A DNA stretch of 64,000 nt, from positions 2,294,001 to 2,358,000 of the forward strand of contig NZ_JAQOUE010000001.1 of the NCBI RefSeq assembly GCF_032191465.1, read 5' to 3'. The notes beneath the pieces were generated by a model. It worked only from the letters and a program-made list of their open reading frames with translations. It searched no databases and was not told the origin of the DNA. Position numbers and translations under genes: made by a program. This DNA comes from Candidatus Nitronereus thalassa (GTDB lineage Bacteria; Nitrospirota; Nitrospiria; Nitrospirales; UBA8639). Below, one piece after another: positions 13,581-27,380 of the stretch (positions are counted from its first letter, which is position 1; each line of letters opens with the position of its first letter).

Positions 13581-14085
13581 TCCTTCAGGGATTTGAGTCA
13601 CCAAAGCTAAGCTTTAAAAATCCCGAACCCAATACATCCAACTCCCGCAAGGATGTAGAGGTACTTTTCCCTCCTATTAATAGAACACGACAGAACTGAG
13701 GAAATGAAATAACCCTCAAATGGAACATTTTAAGGAGACGGAGACGGGGGGAAACCCCATCGAAGAAAAACAGAAAATGAGGACTTAAGCATAGTGAACC
13801 AAAACTTGTAGACATTTGCGCCAATTAAGATTCCCGCTCTTAGACCAAAATGTCCTCAGTAAATGTAACCCAAACTCATCCCTGAGCAACTTTTTCTAAT
13901 ACTTCTTTCCCTCCCAACCCGCTCTCTGGGTTGGTTCTACTGGATTCTTGCTCCAAACATTCATTCACTTACAGGCTGGCAACCCTCCCTTCGTATTTTG
14001 AACATCAATTTTGCATTGAAATGGTTGTGGATGGCCCTGGTGAGTTTCCGTCCGTGCTTTACAAAGATTGGCCGGGCAGATCTTT
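13581..14085. other. Intergenic region upstream of the mla operon
   Basis: About 500 bases without a supportable gene. Contains a 7-bp perfect hairpin (13914-13934, listed separately). A 22-codon frame from 13719 is not supported. The mla operon promoter should lie in the last 150 bases, but no hexamer pair is convincing. Confidence 0.4.
13914..13934 (+). terminator. Short hairpin upstream of the mla operon
   Basis: CCAACCC and GGGTTGG pair perfectly around a 7-base loop, followed by TTCTACT. The T-run is poor, so this is at best a weak terminator or a leader structure. Confidence 0.35.
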
Positions 14086-15237
14086 ATGACAGCACCGAAA
14101 CAACACATTTCCCTTATGACGAAAGACCAAAATGCCAAGATCAATATTGGAGAAGACCAGACTATTTACTGCGAAGGGTGTTGGACTATATCGAAACTGG
14201 CTGACCTCGACCGACGACTCCAAGCCTTTTCCTGGCCCACCCAGACAGACCTTGTGTGGGACGGCAACGATATTACCGCGATCGATACCGGTGGAGCCTT
14301 GGTTCTTCACCGAAGCCTTACCAGGCTTCAACAACAGGGCCATCACATTACCTGGCGGAGATTGCGGGCTGAATTCGCCGAGCTTCTCAAACTCGTCGCC
14401 AACAAGCAGGAAGTCCTGGAAACAGCCGCCCATCCACCAACTCAGAGTTGGCTGGAGCGGATTGGTATGCATGTGTGGACAGATTTGCACCAAGGAATCC
14501 ATGCGTTGGGGTTTCTTGGGGAAAGCACCATTGGGCTGTTTGGACTCCTCGGCTCTCCGCGCAGCATCCGTTGGCGCGTACTCATTCGCAATCTGGAACT
14601 AGATGGATTTCATGCGCTCCCAATCGTTGGCCTCCTGAGCTTTTTGATGGGTGTCGTGATTGCCTACCAAGGCGCAGAGCAACTGCGAACCTTTGGCGCC
14701 AATATTTTTATTGTGGACCTGGTGGGCGTCTCGTTGTTGCGGGAAATTGCTCCATTGGTGACAGCCATTTTAGTGGCGGGTCGATCCGGGTCCGCGTATA
14801 CCGCGCAAATCGGCACCATGAACGTCACAGAAGAATTAGATGCCCTGCGTACACTCGGCATTTCACCCATGAATTACCTGGTGCTCCCCCGAGCCTTAGT
14901 GCTGGTCTTAGCACTTCCATTGCTCACGGTCTACGCGGATATCGTCGGCGTCTTCGGCGGCATGCTGATTGCCAAGACTCAATTAGGTGTGAGCTTTACG
15001 GAATTTATCGACCGCTTCGAATATGCGATCGCACTTAAACATTACGTCATCGGCATCATCAAAGCCCCGGTTTTCGCGGTGATTATTGCATTAACCGGCT
15101 GCTACCAGGGGTTTCAGATTCGTGGAAGCGTGGATAGTGTCGGCCAGCACACGACGATCAGCGTGGTCCAAAGCATTTTTTTGGTCATTGTGTTCGATGC
15201 GTTTTTCTCGGTCTTTTTGAGTTGGTGGGGAATATGA
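14086..15237 (+). CDS. mlaE: Mla-type phospholipid ABC transporter permease with N-terminal STAS domain
   Basis: Inner-membrane permease of an MCE/Mla lipid transporter, 383 residues. The first ~110 residues resemble a STAS domain (a MlaB-like module, including AIDTGGALVL), fused to a MlaE permease body (about 125-383) with several membrane helices and the typical segments GRSGSAYTAQIG and LRTLGISP. In enterobacteria MlaB is a separate protein, so the fusion merges two subunits. ATG 14086 is preferred to a TTG 18 bases upstream; an ATG at 14116 is also possible. The stop overlaps the next start (ATGA), so the operon continues tightly into the ATPase, MCE and lipoprotein genes. Confidence 0.9.
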   Translation: MTAPKQHISLMTKDQNAKINIGEDQTIYCEGCWTISKLADLDRRLQAFSWPTQTDLVWDGNDITAIDTGGALVLHRSLTRLQQQGHHITWRRLRAEFAELLKLVANKQEVLETAAHPPTQSWLERIGMHVWTDLHQGIHALGFLGESTIGLFGLLGSPRSIRWRVLIRNLELDGFHALPIVGLLSFLMGVVIAYQGAEQLRTFGANIFIVDLVGVSLLREIAPLVTAILVAGRSGSAYTAQIGTMNVTEELDALRTLGISPMNYLVLPRALVLVLALPLLTVYADIVGVFGGMLIAKTQLGVSFTEFIDRFEYAIALKHYVIGIIKAPVFAVIIALTGCYQGFQIRGSVDSVGQHTTISVVQSIFLVIVFDAFFSVFLSWWGI

Positions 15238-16043
15238 TTGACATACCAACAGCACCAACCACAACCATTGGGGAGGCGTTAATCGAAGTAAGGCACGTCT
15301 GCACGCGCTTTGGCTCAGCGGTGGTTCATGAGGATGTGAGCCTTGATATCTATCAAGGAGAGGTGTTTGCCATTGCCGGTGGAAACGGATGCGGGAAATC
15401 CACGTTGCTCCGGGAAATCATCCTGCTGCTCGAGCCCAATTCCGGAACAATTCGGATTTTCGGACAAGACACCAAGGGGTTGAATGCAAAAACCGAACGA
15501 GCCTTGCATCGCCGTATCGGCGTCATGTTTCAACATGGCGCGTTATTTAGTTCGCTGAACGTCGTGGAAAATGTAGAGGCCCCATTGCGAGAGCACACAG
15601 ACCTGAATAAACGCCTCATCCACGAGATCGCACTCATGAAGATTTCACTGACCGGCTTTCCCATGAACAGTGTCACGAAATTCCCAAACGAACTGAGCGG
15701 CGGGATGCGCAAGCGTGCCTCACTCGCTCGGGCCATTGTTCTCGACCCCGAAATCTTATTTTTGGATGAGCCCACTTCTGGGCTCGACCCGATTAGTGCC
15801 GGGGCATTTGATGATTTGGTGCAACAACTCAAAGAATGGCTGGGACTCACCATGGTGATTGTCACGCACGATTTGGATTCTCTCTGGAAAGTCACGGACC
15901 GTGTCGCCTTGTTGGGAAATGGACGAGTCTTAGGAACGGGCACGATGGAGGAGCTTTCTCAATCAGACGACCCACTCATTCGTGAGTACTTTCATGGGCC
16001 ACGAGGTCGGGCCGCACGGGAGCAAGCATGGAGCCAAAAGTAA
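15234..16043 (+). CDS. mlaF: Mla-type ABC transporter ATPase
   Basis: Cytoplasmic ATPase subunit, 269 residues, energising lipid transport across the envelope. Walker A GGNGCGKST, signature LSGGMRKRASLARA, Walker B ILFLDEPTSG and the switch His in VIVTHDL are all intact. The start is the ATG of an ATGA overlap with the permease gene; an in-frame TTG 12 bases earlier is not needed. The 3' end overlaps the MCE gene by 16 bases, so translation is probably coupled. Confidence 0.93.
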   Translation: MIDIPTAPTTTIGEALIEVRHVCTRFGSAVVHEDVSLDIYQGEVFAIAGGNGCGKSTLLREIILLLEPNSGTIRIFGQDTKGLNAKTERALHRRIGVMFQHGALFSSLNVVENVEAPLREHTDLNKRLIHEIALMKISLTGFPMNSVTKFPNELSGGMRKRASLARAIVLDPEILFLDEPTSGLDPISAGAFDDLVQQLKEWLGLTMVIVTHDLDSLWKVTDRVALLGNGRVLGTGTMEELSQSDDPLIREYFHGPRGRAAREQAWSQK

Positions 16044-16963
16044 ATTACGTGGTGGTCGGCGCGTTCGTCGTGCTGCTCGGTGCTCTCTTGGTCGGAGTCG
16101 TGCTGTGGTTGGGCAAAGGCTTCGATCAAAAGACCTATGACCGCTACTATGCCTACATGGAGGAATCAGTCACTGGATTGAGCGTTGACGCTTCTGTGAA
16201 ATATCGGGGGGTGGGGGTTGGCCGCGTGAAAGAAATCGTGCTTAACCCCGACAATCCGCAACAGGTGCGGCTGACCTTAGAAATTGAACGAGGCACACCC
16301 ATTAAAGAAGACACCATCGCGATTTTAGATGTTCAAGGACTCACCGGTCTCGCAATTGTGGATCTTACCGGCGGCAGCCGTGAATCGCCTCCATTGGAAG
16401 CGAAGTCCGGCGAATCCTATCCCGTGATCCAAACCGGCCCGTCTCTCCTGGTTCGCTTTGACCAGGCAGCGACACAGCTGTTCACCAACCTGAACCGTGT
16501 AACCAAAAATGTGGACGCCTTGCTGGATGAAACCAATCGGGAAGCCCTCAGCCAACTACTAAAAGATCTGGCAACGCTAACCCAGACGTTAACCGCCAAC
16601 AAACAACGGTTTGACGAGGGGATCACAAATGCCGCGCAAACCATGGAGAATGTATTGAAAGCCAGTAAAATGCTGAACGAGGAGATGCCCTTTTTAATCG
16701 ATCGTATGCATGGGAGCGCCGATTCTTTGGAGGCCATGGCCGAAAAGGTCGGTCAGGCTAGCACCGCCGTCGGTTCAGCGGTCGAGAGGACCAAACCCGA
16801 CGTTGAACGATTTTCTCAACAGACCCTGAGTGAAATGAGTGCGCTAGTGGCGGAGCTTCGCCAATTAACCTCCACCTTGCAACGAACGGCTCAACAACTG
16901 GAGCACCAACCCAATTCGCTCATCTTTGGGCGAACACCCCCACCACGGGGACCAGGCGAATGA
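16028..16963 (+). CDS. mlaD: MCE-domain substrate-binding protein of the Mla-type transporter
   Basis: Membrane-anchored periplasmic protein of 311 residues. One N-terminal transmembrane helix (about 7-29) precedes an MCE domain (about 40-120, including VDASVKYRGVGVGRV), then a long helical region (about 140-300) typical of MlaD/PqiB relatives that form a hexameric lipid channel. Longer than E. coli MlaD (183 residues) because of this tail. Overlaps the ATPase gene at its start and the lipoprotein gene at its end. Confidence 0.92.
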   Translation: MEPKVNYVVVGAFVVLLGALLVGVVLWLGKGFDQKTYDRYYAYMEESVTGLSVDASVKYRGVGVGRVKEIVLNPDNPQQVRLTLEIERGTPIKEDTIAILDVQGLTGLAIVDLTGGSRESPPLEAKSGESYPVIQTGPSLLVRFDQAATQLFTNLNRVTKNVDALLDETNREALSQLLKDLATLTQTLTANKQRFDEGITNAAQTMENVLKASKMLNEEMPFLIDRMHGSADSLEAMAEKVGQASTAVGSAVERTKPDVERFSQQTLSEMSALVAELRQLTSTLQRTAQQLEHQPNSLIFGRTPPPRGPGE

Positions 16964-17610
16964 TAGTTATACGGAAGAAAATTTTAAGGTGTGTCATCCG
17001 GCTTCTTGTTGTCACCACTCTAATCATGTCGGGTTGCGGAATGTTTCCAGTCCGTACTGATGAACCCATACACACTTATTTTCTCCGTGCTGAAATACCA
17101 ACCGAGGCACGCCCAATGACACAAAGTACAGGCACCTTGCTTGTGAATTTGCCTCGTGCGCAATCCGGGTTCAACACACACCGCATGGCCTATATCACAC
17201 GAGACCACGAACTCAACTACTTCGCCGTGAACCAATGGGCTGAGACACCGGCTCACATGCTTCTTCCTCTGTTAGTCAAAGCCCTGGAACATACCAATCA
17301 ATGGGATGCCGTGGTGCAAATGCCTAGTCCCGTCCGAGGCAATTACCAACTCATTTCTGAAAACCTTTTGCTCCAACACGAATTTACCCAAGAGCCAAGC
17401 CGGATCCGAATACATCTCCGATTACAACTGATTCGTGTGAAAAATTTTCACGTCCTAGCCACGCGAGAATTTACGGTATTGGAAAATGCACAAAGCAACG
17501 ACCCTTATGGCGGTGTTCAAGCCGCCAATTCCGCCACAGAACAATTATTAAAAGAAATTTCAGAGTGGGTTTCCCTTTGTAGGGTCGAACCCACTGATAA
17601 AAAGTGCTAA
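16960..17610 (+). CDS. ABC-type transport auxiliary lipoprotein (PqiC-like)
   Basis: Predicted outer-membrane lipoprotein of 216 residues; the signal peptide ends LIMSGC (Cys 26). The body resembles PqiC/auxiliary lipoproteins found with MCE operons (for instance YFLRAEIP near the start of the mature chain and the RIRIHLRLQLIRV strand segment). It would receive or stabilise the lipid-transfer channel at the outer membrane. ATGA overlap with the MCE gene indicates a four-gene operon. Assignment rests on context plus moderate similarity. Confidence 0.8.
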   Translation: MIVIRKKILRCVIRLLVVTTLIMSGCGMFPVRTDEPIHTYFLRAEIPTEARPMTQSTGTLLVNLPRAQSGFNTHRMAYITRDHELNYFAVNQWAETPAHMLLPLLVKALEHTNQWDAVVQMPSPVRGNYQLISENLLLQHEFTQEPSRIRIHLRLQLIRVKNFHVLATREFTVLENAQSNDPYGGVQAANSATEQLLKEISEWVSLCRVEPTDKKC

Positions 17611-18007: not shown

Positions 18008-18496
18008 ATGATTCAAGAAGTAGAAGGGGACATTCTCTTAACCAAAGCCAATGCCATAGCCCACGGAGTGGCGCCCCATGACAATTTCGCCAATGGCTTA
18101 GCCCTGGCGCTACGAGAGCGATGGCCAGCCATGTACAAAGACTTCAAGCACGCTTGCCAAGTCTCAGAACCAAAAACAGGTGAATTATGGACGTGGGGTG
18201 GAGCGGGTGGAGTACGCATTATCAATCTGCTCACGCAAGAGCCACCACCTACTCGGGGGGGAAGACCAGGAAAAGCCAGCGTGGAAAACGTTAATCACTG
18301 TCTCAAAGCTTTGCGAAAAACCATTGAGGAGGAAAAATTCACCAGCGTGGCCCTCCCGAAGTTGGCCTGCGGCGTCGGAGGTTTGGATTGGAAAGATGTC
18401 AAACCGCTGATTGCTAAACACCTGGGTGATTTAAAAATACCCATTGTCGTGTATTCGACCTATCACTCTGGAGTAGAGGCCACCGAGAAATTATAA
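18008..18496 (+). CDS. Macro-domain protein (ADP-ribose binding or hydrolysis)
   Basis: Single macro domain, 162 residues. The motif GDILLTKANAIAHGVAPHDNF near the N-terminus (residues 8-28) and VALPKLACGVGGLDW (115-129) match the ADP-ribose-binding loops of ALC1/TARG1/DarG-like macro domains. Such proteins bind or remove ADP-ribose from proteins or DNA. No adjacent ADP-ribosyltransferase or DarT toxin gene is seen, so a toxin-antitoxin role is not supported. An AAGGAGG site precedes the ATG. It is convergent with the cupredoxin gene, with a 10-bp hairpin between. Confidence 0.88.
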   Translation: MIQEVEGDILLTKANAIAHGVAPHDNFANGLALALRERWPAMYKDFKHACQVSEPKTGELWTWGGAGGVRIINLLTQEPPPTRGGRPGKASVENVNHCLKALRKTIEEEKFTSVALPKLACGVGGLDWKDVKPLIAKHLGDLKIPIVVYSTYHSGVEATEKL

Positions 18497-18521
18497 GGTG
18501 CGTGTCATTCCCCCAAAAGGC

Positions 18522-18555
18522 CGTGCAGAGGGCCAGAATCTAGGTCCTCTGCACG
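18522..18555. terminator. Hairpin between convergent genes
   Basis: CGTGCAGAGG and CCTCTGCACG form a perfect 10-bp stem around a 14-base loop, placed between the macro-domain gene and the convergent cupredoxin gene. It lacks a clear T-run on either side, so it may act as a processing or partial terminator structure. Confidence 0.5.
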
Positions 18556-18599
18556 AACACCATGGGATAAGGAATGGTGACGAGTAGGGAAAGAGCCCA

Positions 18600-19055
18600 C
18601 TACACAACATGGATGACTAAATTATTCAAGTGATCCATGCCGATGCAATCCACAATACAAAAGCCTCGATAACTGGTTCGCCCCTCTTCGCCTGCGAGAA
18701 AGGTGACGCTCGCTGTTTGGTCCCACATCCAGATTTTCTTCGATTCTTGCTCCCACCCATCTTTTGAAATAATCGAAACCTGATGAGTATCCCCATAGGC
18801 TAAACTGGTCACCTTTTCGCTAAACTCAAACGTAATGCGGACCACCTTTCCCTTGGGGATATTCAGGGGATTTTTCGGCCCAAAGGGCTTATTCCGATGA
18901 TCCAGAAACCCTTGTTGAGACACCTTGACCGTAATCTCGACCTCTGCAGGGGCAGCACCTTCTTTGGAAGCCAACACTGCCGGGGTAAAAATCAAACTGA
19001 CACAAAACAATAGCGTCGTGCCAACCGCGGACCATTTAGACAACAATCTTTGCAT
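18600..19055 (-). CDS. Exported cupredoxin-like protein
   Basis: Periplasmic copper-protein candidate of 151 residues. The signal peptide ends near VLASK. The mature chain has a beta-rich cupredoxin pattern: an N-terminal strand segment EVEITVKVSQQGF, a central YGDTHQVSII with a potential ligand His, and a C-terminal FCIVDCIGMDHL resembling the C-x3-C-x-H-x-M cluster of CuA or blue-copper sites, though spacing differs from classic CuA. Metal content is inference. AAGGAGG before the ATG fixes the start. It follows the cysteine-rich gene by 42 bases, so both would be controlled by the upstream cyclic-di-GMP riboswitch. Confidence 0.8.
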   Translation of the reverse strand: MQRLLSKWSAVGTTLLFCVSLIFTPAVLASKEGAAPAEVEITVKVSQQGFLDHRNKPFGPKNPLNIPKGKVVRITFEFSEKVTSLAYGDTHQVSIISKDGWEQESKKIWMWDQTASVTFLAGEEGRTSYRGFCIVDCIGMDHLNNLVIHVV

Positions 19056-19097
19056 AGAGACCTCCTTAATTAAGGGAAACGAATTTTAATTCGTTTG

Positions 19098-19358
19098 TTA
19101 GCCAATAACGTTGGTTCCGATTTTTCCAAGTTCCTTCTGATGTTTTTCGACTTCCCGTTGGTGGATGGCATGCGCCTCTTCGGTGTGAATACAGTTATGC
19201 CCACAGGTGACCACCCCTTTGCCGTTCAAAAATTCGGAACATCCTGTCACCTCCACTCCACCTTTTTCTGCACCTCGAAACACATTAATTTCAAAACCAA
19301 CTTCACGTTTCTCTTTCAAATTGGGACATTGTACTTCTGCTGGAACTTCTGACTTCAT
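19098..19358 (-). CDS. Small cysteine- and histidine-containing protein
   Basis: Not recognised; 86 residues, no signal peptide. Cys occur in CPNLK near residue 11, GCSEF and TCGHNCIHTEEAHAIH, a cluster that could bind metal. A GGAAGGGGGAA site before ATG 19358 decides the start; longer in-frame versions reach into the leader. It is the first gene after a cyclic-di-GMP-I riboswitch and terminator, and probably forms an operon with the cupredoxin gene downstream. Confidence 0.75.
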   Translation of the reverse strand: MKSEVPAEVQCPNLKEKREVGFEINVFRGAEKGGVEVTGCSEFLNGKGVVTCGHNCIHTEEAHAIHQREVEKHQKELGKIGTNVIG

Positions 19359-19619
19359 GATGATTCCCCCTTCCGAGAATTGAAAATTACGTGAGATAGG
19401 ATCGCCCGAAACGTGACGGAAGCGACCGTTCCCACTCCCCACCCACCTCTCGTACTGGCGGAGTGAAGGGCACTCGTTGTTAAAGTCCGGCCTTGGATTC
19501 AACTAAGATTCAGCAAACAAGACGTTTGCAAGCTTATTAAGAATGGAGCCTGTTGGAGATCAGGAAGGGAATGCCACTTTCATCACAGCGGCGAACTAAA
19601 TCCTGACGAAAAATGGCAT

Positions 19620-19680
19620 AAAAAAACCCCTCAGCACGGAAGCATCCTTAAACAAAGAAGGCACTTCCTTCCTGGGAGGA
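19620..19680 (-). terminator. Rho-independent terminator downstream of the riboswitch
   Basis: On the minus strand CCTCCCAG pairs with CTGAGGGG (7 of 8), enclosing GGAAG/CTTCC and CCTT/AAGG stems, and is followed by TTTTTTT. It begins 17 bases after the riboswitch core, the layout expected of a transcriptional riboswitch expression platform. Confidence 0.8.
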
Positions 19681-19696
19681 TTCGGAGAATCTCTCT

Positions 19697-19787
19697 CCTT
19701 CCTTCGGCAACCCGGCCATCAGGGTTTTTGCCTGATCCGTGGTTTTGCGTCCCCGCCTCACAGCGGGTTTGCCTTTATCGGGAAGTG
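19697..19787 (-). promoter_or_regulatory. Cyclic-di-GMP-I (GEMM-I) riboswitch
   Basis: On the minus strand the conserved GGCAAACC is followed by a stem CCGCU/GGCGG with a GUGA (GNRA) tetraloop, then GGGACGCAAAACC, a second stem AUCAGG/CCUGAU carrying the tetraloop-receptor side, and GGCCGGGUUGCCG. The closing P1 helix is CUUCC/GGAAG. These are the defining elements of the GEMM-I class that binds cyclic di-GMP. The terminator lies directly downstream, and the first gene begins about 340 bases after the aptamer. Whether ligand turns expression on or off cannot be told by eye. An HD-GYP phosphodiesterase gene lies 5 kb away. Confidence 0.93.
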
Positions 19788-20096
19788 GTTCTTCTTGGGT
19801 CTGCTTATGACTTCAAGAAAGTATCAGACAAATCTCACTATGTCCAAATCGGAATAGTTTAGTGGAACTTGAGACACCCGAAGGCGTTGACCACCTTCCG
19901 CTCATAAAGAATCGTGATTCAACTGAAGGAATACATCTGAATGGCAATAAAGAAATAAAACAACAAATTCAGAATGAAAAAATTTTCCTGTAGGCTGCTG
20001 ACCTAACTCCCCAGAGCCATCAACACCAGTTTTCTTCATTGTCCTTTTATGGAACACAAAATACCAACTGATAAAAATCTATTGTCGCGTTTTTCA

Positions 20097-21113
20097 TCAA
20101 TTAGCCAAACAACAGTGCTTGTACTTTTTTCCGCTTCCACATGGACAAGGTGCATTTCGCCCCAGTCCTCTAGAATTTGGAACAACCATTGTGAGCAAAG
20201 CATTCTTCATACGTGATTGTGGGTCTTGGCGAAACACTTTTTCGAGCATCGTATAAAGTTCTGGGTGTTTCCGACGCATCTTGTCCGGATTTTCAAAAAA
20301 GTACTCGGAAGCCACCGCAAAAAATTCTGCCTCACTCTTCAATCCATACGGATTAATATCCGAATGATGGCTCCGCATCTTATCCATTTCTCGATGCACG
20401 AGTTTCATCCAAGGAACGACTGCGCTTTGTGACAAACCAACACTCGGCACGCCATCAACCGCACCGTCGGACTTATCCAGCAAGTGCGCAAACTCATGAA
20501 TACCCACATTCTTGCGATCCTGAGGCTTGCGAAAACCTTGTAGTAAATCAGGCTTAGAGAGAATCATCATACGACTCATCGCCCCGCTTCCGACCATGCC
20601 AAGAATATCCTCATCTCCCGTACGGCCAATCTCGTATTGATCATTAAATGTCGTCGGATACAGGAGCACCTCGCTGATTTGGTCCCACTCCCACCCAGGA
20701 AACCCAAAAATCGGAATGATCGCACTCGCCGCCACCAACACACGCACCGTGTCATCGACTGAGGTTTGAATGCCCGTAATTCGTTTTTCAGAAAGAAAGA
20801 TTCGCACCTCTTCCCGAAAACGGGCTTTCTCCAACTCATCGAGTGATTGATAAAACGGCACCTCTCGCTGCAAGATGGTTTCCCACTCTGCGGGAAATGG
20901 CTGCTTCCGAAGCACCGACCTCCGCCGAGCTTTGCGGGTCAAAAACCAGTACAAAAAAGCAACCACAAGGAAAGCTCCCACAATGCGAATAACAATTTCC
21001 GAAGTTTCCTGTCTCCCGGCCAACAACATTACCAAGAGCAACAAAAAAATCATCCCGGAAAGAAATAGTGATAACCGATGAGTGAAATGTTCTTGGTGTT
21101 GACGTGCATCCAT
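20097..21113 (-). CDS. mtfA: MtfA-like M90 family zinc peptidase with membrane anchor and SEC-C motif
   Basis: Predicted membrane-anchored metallopeptidase, 338 residues from this ATG. Two hydrophobic segments lie near residues 14-33 and 39-58. The M90 domain carries the zinc site HEFAHLLD followed by a downstream Glu in EFFAVASEYFFE, as in E. coli MtfA, a regulator-interacting aminopeptidase of 265 residues. The C-terminus adds a SEC-C zinc motif, CPCGSGKKYKHCC. Both the membrane anchors and SEC-C are additions relative to MtfA. The start is uncertain: no strong ribosome-binding site; a TTG 93 bases upstream is also open. Confidence 0.88.
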   Translation of the reverse strand: MDARQHQEHFTHRLSLFLSGMIFLLLLVMLLAGRQETSEIVIRIVGAFLVVAFLYWFLTRKARRRSVLRKQPFPAEWETILQREVPFYQSLDELEKARFREEVRIFLSEKRITGIQTSVDDTVRVLVAASAIIPIFGFPGWEWDQISEVLLYPTTFNDQYEIGRTGDEDILGMVGSGAMSRMMILSKPDLLQGFRKPQDRKNVGIHEFAHLLDKSDGAVDGVPSVGLSQSAVVPWMKLVHREMDKMRSHHSDINPYGLKSEAEFFAVASEYFFENPDKMRRKHPELYTMLEKVFRQDPQSRMKNALLTMVVPNSRGLGRNAPCPCGSGKKYKHCCLAN

Positions 21114-24823: not shown

Positions 24824-26182
24824 TTAGGCTGGAGCCAAGGAGGGTTGGGGAGCCGGGGCCGCTCCCGGTGTCGCCATTGGAGACACACCGGTATTGCAGG
24901 CAAAATAACTGATCATTCCTCGCGGATTGAGATACTTCCAGACTTTGCGTGGAACATCCATCGGGCGCAGGCTTTGCTTAAGGCTTAACGTGGGCTCTTG
25001 TTGATATAAGTCTACAATGATCGCTTCTTCCCTGGGAATATCCTGATTATACAGCATGATGGTTGGACGCATTCGATCAACCAGGTTAATGCTTGTGACC
25101 ATGCCAAACGACCCATTGGACAGCTCGACAATTGAACTCGGAGGATACACTCCCAAATTTTGAATCAGCGCGATAACGGCTTCTTCCCAAAATTCATCTC
25201 CGCGCTTGGCATAAATTTGACAGATGGCCTCATGCGGAGTCAGGCTTTTTTCAAATTGCGAGTTATTACATAATTCATCATAGGTATCTGCCACCATGAC
25301 GATTTTAGACAGCAGGTGAATGGCGCTTTCTTTCAAGCCGTCGGGGTAGCCGCTTCCATTAAGCCGTTCATGATGCTGCGCAATGGCTTCAAGACTCGGT
25401 TCCGGGAAGCCAAATCCCCCAATCATTTTTCTTCCATTTTTGGGATGGTTCCGTAGGAATAGGAGTTCTTGTTTGTTCATCTTTGCACCTTTTTTGATGA
25501 ACATTCCCGCCCCGTCGAGTTCACCAATATCATGAAACAGGGCTCCGATGCCTAGCATCTTGATGGTTTCATCCGGGAGATCCAACCCTTGCCCTAACAC
25601 CATGGACAACATACAGACGTTGAGCGAATGATAGTAAAAGTCATCTCCCATTTCCTGGTTCGTGTTGAAATTCAGAATGCTTATTAACGTTCCATTTTCA
25701 TCCAATATCTTCGCAAGCGTGTTGACCAGACTTTCCGCCTTTCGAACTCCCTTGGCATAACCGGCTTTTATTTCGCGAATGCTGTCTTTATTTTGCTTGA
25801 GCACTTCCTTGTAGGACTTTTCAGCCTCCTTGAGCTTGTTCAGCCTGGCTTGATTGGCACGGAACTTTTCCGGGCTGTCCAGGTAGGGAGAAAGGACTAT
25901 TGGCAGATCTTGGCTATCTGGCATTTCCTGGACAATGGATGGACTATCTACAACTTGGACCTCTTCGATGCTGCCATCTTCCACTTCCTCAGATGGCAAG
26001 GGATCGGAGCGGTCGGGGTCATACAGAATTTTACAGTTGCGCAAAGCCTGCACTGTGGCGAGTTCTTTTTGATCTTTAATTTTAAAGCTATTCGTCGGGA
26101 AGGGATGGGTAAACCAATTCCCACTTAACTTGATGTACAATCCAATACGTAAGTCTTCTCTTGCTGCTGGATAAAATGCCAT
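24824..26182 (-). CDS. HD-GYP cyclic-di-GMP phosphodiesterase
   Basis: Predicted cytoplasmic c-di-GMP phosphodiesterase, 452 residues. The N-terminal ~60 residues match DUF3391 (LRIGLYIKLSG, HPFPTNSFKI). A linker with a charged helix (about 120-165) leads to the HD-GYP domain (about 185-400): HD in FHDIGELD, then HHERLNGSGYPDGL. The C-terminus ends in a Pro/Ala-rich tail. No receiver domain, so its input is probably through the N-terminal domain. It lies in the same neighbourhood as the c-di-GMP riboswitch at 19.7 kb; no GGDEF cyclase is in the window. Confidence 0.93.
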   Translation of the reverse strand: MAFYPAAREDLRIGLYIKLSGNWFTHPFPTNSFKIKDQKELATVQALRNCKILYDPDRSDPLPSEEVEDGSIEEVQVVDSPSIVQEMPDSQDLPIVLSPYLDSPEKFRANQARLNKLKEAEKSYKEVLKQNKDSIREIKAGYAKGVRKAESLVNTLAKILDENGTLISILNFNTNQEMGDDFYYHSLNVCMLSMVLGQGLDLPDETIKMLGIGALFHDIGELDGAGMFIKKGAKMNKQELLFLRNHPKNGRKMIGGFGFPEPSLEAIAQHHERLNGSGYPDGLKESAIHLLSKIVMVADTYDELCNNSQFEKSLTPHEAICQIYAKRGDEFWEEAVIALIQNLGVYPPSSIVELSNGSFGMVTSINLVDRMRPTIMLYNQDIPREEAIIVDLYQQEPTLSLKQSLRPMDVPRKVWKYLNPRGMISYFACNTGVSPMATPGAAPAPQPSLAPA

Positions 26183-26687: not shown

Positions 26688-27380
26688 TCAGGGTGTCGAG
26701 ATTTCCTCAGTGCGATCTCTCAGTTTGGTGACCAATTCACCATAGGAGGAAGAGCGTATGATCCGATCAAATTGATCTCGATAATTTCTCACCAAGCTCA
26801 CACCATTAATCACGATGTCATAAATCCACCATCGATCGGTTTGGCGCACTAAGCGATAGTCCAAATGTATTTCGGTTTTGGCGGATGCGATCTTCGTTTG
26901 AACTTCCGCATAGGAGCCCTTCAATCGGACTTTTGTGTACTGCACGACCTCATCCGAATAGGTTTCAAAGCGTTTCGCATAGGTTTTGGAAAGAAACGTA
27001 TGAAAGACATTCACGAATTCCTCTTGCTCGGTTGGAGTTCGATTTCGCCAATGCAAGGCCAATGTACGCTTGGCCATTTCTTCATAATTCAGCTTCCGTC
27101 CAACCGCATTTTCGAGTAACGCGCGCCGCTCCTGAGTCTGCTCCGGCCCTTTCAATTCCTCTTTCTTTAATATGGTGATGACTTCATCGACCATGGATTT
27201 CACAGCTGCTGTGGGATCGCCTTCCCCAGAGGCCAAGATGCCACCCGTCAAGAAAATGGTCGCAGTCAGGGCGAGTACCACCTGGAACTTCCTTGCTCGT
27301 CTCTTGGTCCCGAAACTTTTCACGGCGATACAGACCTTATTCTTTCCGCTGTTTTCCAACTTTATCCGCGTATTAGGCAC
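26688..27380 (-). CDS. mlaC: MlaC-type periplasmic phospholipid-binding protein
   Basis: Periplasmic lipid shuttle of 230 residues, carrying phospholipid between the outer membrane and the MCE transporter. After a hydrophobic export segment (about 33-50, ending ILASG) the Ttg2/MlaC pattern is clear: YEEMAKRTLALHWRNRTP, FVNVFHTFLSKTYAKRF, WWIYDIVINGVSLVRNYRDQF. The start is a GTG overlapping the ppsA stop (GTGCCTAA), which implies translational coupling; the export signal is long from this start, so an internal start is possible. It lies 10 kb from the mlaEFD operon, an unusual split. Confidence 0.9.
   Translation of the reverse strand: MPNTRIKLENSGKNKVCIAVKSFGTKRRARKFQVVLALTATIFLTGGILASGEGDPTAAVKSMVDEVITILKKEELKGPEQTQERRALLENAVGRKLNYEEMAKRTLALHWRNRTPTEQEEFVNVFHTFLSKTYAKRFETYSDEVVQYTKVRLKGSYAEVQTKIASAKTEIHLDYRLVRQTDRWWIYDIVINGVSLVRNYRDQFDRIIRSSSYGELVTKLRDRTEEISTP

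Follow-up and report, generated by a model that had tools for sequence, protein, structure and literature searches.

In the genome of Candidatus Nitronereus thalassa, two small reverse-strand genes, coding for a Cys/His protein and a cupredoxin-fold protein, lie behind a sigma-28-like promoter motif, a c-di-GMP-I riboswitch aptamer and an intrinsic terminator. At the level of sequence, the aptamer, the terminator, the promoter motif, the gene order and the conservation of this arrangement among relatives are established in a stretch of 64,000 nucleotides, hereafter the window. The explanation that accounts best for these features, and in which we place fairly good confidence, is that a sigma-28-type promoter and a c-di-GMP-I OFF switch with its terminator stand ahead of the operon, within a family-wide regulon on which c-di-GMP acts at two levels. 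Most likely, the operon is part of a regulon of the motile state under c-di-GMP gating, and this gating probably operates at both levels. Taken by itself, the window riboswitch is a typical representative of its class, which is well known. The unusual part is its setting, namely a flagellar-type promoter ahead of the riboswitch, which is common to most c-di-GMP riboswitches of the family, and the fact that a second sigma factor of the FliA type also follows such a riboswitch.

Aptamer, terminator and predicted direction of switching

A full-length c-di-GMP-I aptamer was found by cmscan at 19782-19702 on the reverse strand, with 73.7 bits against RF03167 (cut-off 59, E 1.4e-15) and 72.9 bits against RF01051 over the same span (cut-off 35), a difference of 0.8 bit. 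An earlier note on this DNA, made from the letters alone, had claimed that all GEMM-I elements are present and had named a poor covariance-model score as grounds for abandoning the claim. The RF01051 score lies far above its cut-off, and every named element was recovered, including the GUGA tetraloop, the second stem and the closing strand. The possibility that the better score of RF03167 points to an altered ligand was rejected, as the consensus of this model reads CGCGAA and the window carries CGCAAA, as in RF01051, so that the RF03167 consensus G is absent. Judging from these letters we provisionally file the switch under c-di-GMP-I, although this G may not be what defines RF03167. The nucleotide preceding CAAACC in the window is a G, as in c-di-GMP binders, and it is presumably here that they differ from cGAMP binders. 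The equivalent of G20 has been described as a selectivity factor (PMC9262584), and c-di-GMP is the expected ligand of the window aptamer.

The aptamer is followed by an intrinsic terminator at 19683-19620 on the reverse strand, made of a bulged stem of -22.4 kcal/mol and of the seven T that had already been noticed, here placed at 19626-19620. A simple terminator scan missed it, probably owing to its bulges and loop. Folding of the window leader indicates that P1 is compatible with the terminator and excludes the best antiterminator. The latter would form between the 5' strand of P1, CACUUCC (19781-19787), and the GGAAGUG stretch (19662-19668) of the terminator's 5' arm, a pairing that constrained folding favors over P1 by 6.6 kcal/mol once the RNA has grown to nt 155. 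From this balance, c-di-GMP is predicted to cause termination. Upon binding of c-di-GMP, P1 would form between CUUCC and its partner GGAAG (19702-19698), the terminator would fold and transcription would stop. Without c-di-GMP, CACUUCC would instead pair with the terminator arm and allow read-through, so that motile cells, in which c-di-GMP is low, would express the operon.

The window riboswitch is thus predicted to be an OFF switch, with moderate support. Shuffling produced a complement as long as the antiterminator in 66 of 2000 trials, and an equally good pairing is available to 7 of 31 unrelated leaders. Conservation of the antiterminator across all Cys/His leaders was considered and rejected, the pairing being absent from the other ones; the terminators of four relatives (G013, G014, G062 and G070) have no clear T run after their hairpins. 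The lack of conservation gives some room to the opposite sign, i.e., an ON switch behind the same promoter, in which c-di-GMP would prevent termination and the operon would serve the sessile state. c-di-GMP-I switches of both signs are known, and an ON and an OFF switch with homologous aptamers have been compared (PMC9262584). We nevertheless regard an ON switch as unlikely, given that P1 and the terminator can coexist in the window leader at the expense of the best antiterminator.

Regarding the supply of the ligand, seven reading frames of the window genome carry a total of eight GGDEF matches, and HD_5 domains number 14; this genome can therefore make and break c-di-GMP. The HD-GYP phosphodiesterase gene reported about 5 kb from the aptamer is real (24824-26182, reverse strand). 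A link between this gene and the riboswitch was rejected, since genes on both strands lie between them and the HD-GYP gene carries only one of the 14 HD_5 domains; its proximity is uninformative. Elsewhere in the window, the forward-strand region 14068-17610 resembles a lipid-transport system of the Mla/MCE type, with an ABC_trans_aux match at 16960-17610, and a separate MlaC-like gene (26688-27380, reverse strand) is located upstream of the HD-GYP gene.

A sigma-28-like motif shared by c-di-GMP-I leaders

Ahead of the window aptamer, the motif TCAAGTTC-N11-TCCGATTT (19872-19846, reverse strand) is sigma-28-like with 13 of 16 matches, its -10 box TCCGATTT being the weakest of the set. The pattern TMAAGTT-N13-CCGAT matches once in the 64-kb window, against 0.05 expected. 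When the upstream regions of the Cys/His homologues of the family are read side by side, TCAAGTTT-N11-TCCGATA or near variants precede all eight homologues for which upstream sequence is available, including those devoid of an intact aptamer. In Bdellovibrio, attack-phase promoters of the form TTAAG-N16-CCGATA are ascribed to FliA (PMC3627812). Of six main flagellins of the family, five are preceded near position -160 by TCAAGTYY and a spacer of 11; the flagellin of the window genome itself has TTAAGTTT with a spacer of 12, which is not better than shuffles (7/100). The same genome encodes a FliA that scores 269 bits. By motif match and family conservation, the operon promoter looks like a sigma-28 (FliA) type and is predicted as such, and given its likeness to the promoters of the flagellin genes of the family, the operon seems to be part of the motility/sessility program. 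The earlier remark that the genes are not the usual motility targets misses this promoter.

The motif extends to most c-di-GMP-I leaders of the family. With at least 13 of 16 matches required within 250 nt upstream of the aptamer, it was found in 45 of 72 leaders; the reverse strand gave none of 72, and shuffles led to an expectation of 0.3. Common descent links many of these leaders, which therefore do not represent independent events, and some of the consensus letters were picked once the first leaders had been seen. When the sigma-factor leaders are left out, the count is 44 of 61. The motif precedes all five Cys/His-cupredoxin leaders, 19 of the 22 leaders of exported FN3 proteins, 12 of 16 Flp pilin leaders, half of the ten response regulator leaders and three of the eight remaining ones. 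A genome-wide scan for the exact pattern TCAAGTTT-N11-TCCGATAA offers a more independent test. Four copies were detected in eight genomes, all of them just upstream of c-di-GMP-I aptamers, one preceding the Cys/His gene of G013, and the reversed exact pattern was absent from the eight genomes even with one mismatch allowed. With a looser pattern and at most one mismatch, 3 of 13 sites in the window genome precede riboswitches, although the reversed pattern yields at least as many sites in total. In this genome, the best site of the sigma-28 type (L084; G000:C2:269912-269937, reverse strand) lies before an OmpA-family protein and is not associated with a riboswitch.

Several of these leaders deserve a separate description. 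Exported FN3-domain proteins stand behind c-di-GMP-I aptamers at L002, L009, L013, L014, L016, L017, L021, L027, L032, L133, L135 and L164. In FN3 leaders, the 5' strand of P1 pairs in a leader-specific manner with a downstream strand able to pair near the ribosome-binding site, and in each of 12 cases at most two of 24 unrelated leaders pair equally well. The sequence of this pairing differs between leaders, and the partner strand can mask the ribosome-binding site. Among 11 Flp leaders, 6 show a similar leader-specific pairing of the P1 strand. In the window genome, Flp pilin and TadE-like genes are preceded by a pair of c-di-GMP-I aptamers some 550 nt from each other (L003/L004; G000:C1:275024-275663, forward strand), and the spacing in G004 and G008 is similar. 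Another aptamer precedes a reading frame of 494 aa (L007; G000:C1:1572670-1572772, reverse strand).

Most genomes tested encode, besides FliA (about 263-269 bits), a second protein of the FliA/WhiG family (about 193-208 bits; cut-off 189.6). In all eight genomes having one, the matched part of this second sigma factor is preceded, at a distance of about 220-240 nt, by a c-di-GMP-I aptamer, and the five leaders that were folded all show hairpins followed by T runs. The gene stands directly behind an aptamer at L005 (G000:C1:732134-733117, reverse strand), L125-L129, L138, L144, L152, L158, L160 and L165. A sigma-28 promoter for the paralogue itself was rejected, the motif being present in only 1 of its 11 leaders. 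FliA and the second protein share long blocks of sequence within what we take to be regions 2 and 4, so that both may read the same promoters, and the second sigma factor may read those of the riboswitch leaders.

The motif could instead be read by another sigma factor or activator that is not of the FliA type, in which case the link to motility would be only apparent. Several leaders without a good -35 would suit such a reader, and the assignment of the motif to its reader is drawn from sequence, with a consensus whose letters were partly chosen after inspection of the first leaders. We give this alternative little credence, because the motif matches the FliA motif of Bdellovibrio and precedes flagellins of the same family, and because most of these genomes encode two FliA/WhiG proteins that score above the curated cut-off. 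Moreover, in G012 and G049, which have no flagellin and no FliA/WhiG protein above the cut-off, no c-di-GMP-I aptamer was found.

With a sigma-28-type reader, c-di-GMP would act in this family through two kinds of leader, that of the second FliA/WhiG sigma factor and those of genes transcribed from sigma-28-type promoters. One step further, we tentatively propose a feed-forward circuit in the Nitrospirales, to which we give slightly less than even chances. A riboswitch would gate a dedicated FliA paralogue, the paralogue would read the promoters of the riboswitch leaders, and the targets would be mostly non-flagellar, i.e., pilins, surface FN3 proteins, response regulators and the cupredoxin pair.

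An operon for a Cys/His protein and a cupredoxin-fold protein

From its sigma-28 (FliA-type) promoter, transcription would proceed through the riboswitch and the terminator into an operon of the Cys/His gene followed by the cupredoxin gene. Both open reading frames, 19358-19098 (86 aa) and 19055-18600 (151 aa) on the reverse strand, have a ribosome-binding site. The 86-aa product had been described as an unknown Cys/His protein and remains one, as it has no match in Pfam, NCBIfam or PDB sequences, and its structure model (pLDDT 57) is too poor for use. Among 98 genomes searched, homologues were found with confidence in nine relatives and weakly in a tenth, and named records assign these relatives to the Nitrospirales; the alignment reveals four invariant Cys and three invariant His. 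The cupredoxin gene follows in 9 of the 10 genomes with a confident match, its own included, the exception being G013.

The placement of a riboswitch in front of this operon was also right, and it is conserved in five other members of the family, in two of them decayed. An aptamer lies about 200-345 nt before the Cys/His gene in G027, G013 and G014, and a weak, decayed one in G062 and G070. An apparent remnant was seen in G029 and no aptamer upstream of the gene in G023 and G033; three genomes of the family keep the gene without an intact aptamer. L048, L051 and L052 are decayed aptamers before the Cys/His gene at which the sigma-28-like promoter is kept, and form a series of riboswitch loss.

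These data bear on a further alternative, in which the terminated leader is itself the main product, a short RNA serving as a c-di-GMP sponge like the merRNA of Bdellovibrio, while a promoter of their own, independent of the leader, serves the genes that begin 260 nt beyond. The long distance from aptamer to gene (344 nt) and the merRNA precedent (PMC3627812) speak for it. Such a promoter between the terminator and 19358, bypassing the riboswitch, had been named as a finding that would overturn the regulatory claim. None came to light: no sigma-70-type promoter was found in 18400-20100, and hence none in the gap. In addition, aptamer and gene occur together in several genera, and it is the upstream promoter that is kept where the aptamer has decayed. 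A sponge RNA is therefore improbable, and control of the operon by its leader remains our preferred reading.

The 151-aa protein has no match in Pfam, NCBIfam or PDB sequences either. Its structure model (pLDDT 73) displays the Greek-key beta-barrel of cupredoxins, and its best structural matches are copper proteins of this fold, the best with a Z of 10.3 over 99 residues. Across 20 homologues, H91, C133, C137 and M140 do not vary, whereas H142 does. The conserved loop, C-x3-C-x2-M-x-H, follows an order that we take to be unlike those of type-1 and CuA sites. The model and the invariant residues make copper binding likely, and the hydrophobic N-terminus, read by eye, suggests export. The earlier label of an exported copper-type protein thus finds support in the fold and the invariant His, Cys and Met, and none in Pfam or NCBIfam family matches. 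A search for the cupredoxin alone in named genomes returned nothing. Another 16 loci with cupredoxin homologues, most of them from outside the family, had no riboswitch nearby at E 0.1. Beyond the gene, between the convergent cupredoxin and macro-domain genes, an inverted repeat (GTGCAGAGG...CCTCTGCAC, 18523-18554) possibly marks the end of the operon.

Relation to known systems

Regulation by riboswitches and regulation by alternative sigma factors are commonly regarded as distinct layers. Here, a single second messenger appears to control a sigma factor and, in addition, the transcripts carrying promoters of the corresponding type, in several genera of mostly uncultured Nitrospirales, and an undescribed cupredoxin and Cys/His protein appear to be tied to the motile/sessile decision. 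The promoters and leaders reported here form a defined set on which the circuit can be tested. In the literature that we covered in part, no paper joined Nitrospira with "c-di-GMP riboswitch", or a cupredoxin with a riboswitch and c-di-GMP.

Compared with known c-di-GMP-I (GEMM-I) switches of RF01051 and RF03167, the window riboswitch has all helices, high scores and a terminator as expression platform, and differs in its target genes, which are undescribed. With cupredoxins such as auracyanin, rusticyanin, CuA domains and nitrosocyanin, the 151-aa protein shares the fold (Z 8-10 over about 90-100 residues), but it lacks a sequence family match and its loop order is apparently different.

At the level of the circuit, a close likeness is with Cd1 of C. 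difficile, a c-di-GMP-I OFF switch before the flgB operon, which holds sigD; Cd1 is transcribed from a sigma-A promoter, and 338 nt separate its termination site from the first gene (PMC5386303, PMC9262584). The two systems have in common a c-di-GMP-I switch with a terminator, a long stretch before the first gene and a sigma-28-type factor under the control of such a switch, SigD in the case of Cd1. They differ in that the window promoter is sigma-28-like, and in that a separate FliA paralogue lies here behind its own switch. The merRNA of Bdellovibrio, which holds a c-di-GMP riboswitch, belongs to an attack phase ruled by FliA-type promoters (PMC3627812). That phase resembles the situation proposed here, as it combines FliA-type promoters far beyond flagellar genes with an abundant c-di-GMP riboswitch RNA. 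However, no gene lies downstream of merRNA, for which a FliA promoter is not indicated, whereas the switches of this family lead genes.
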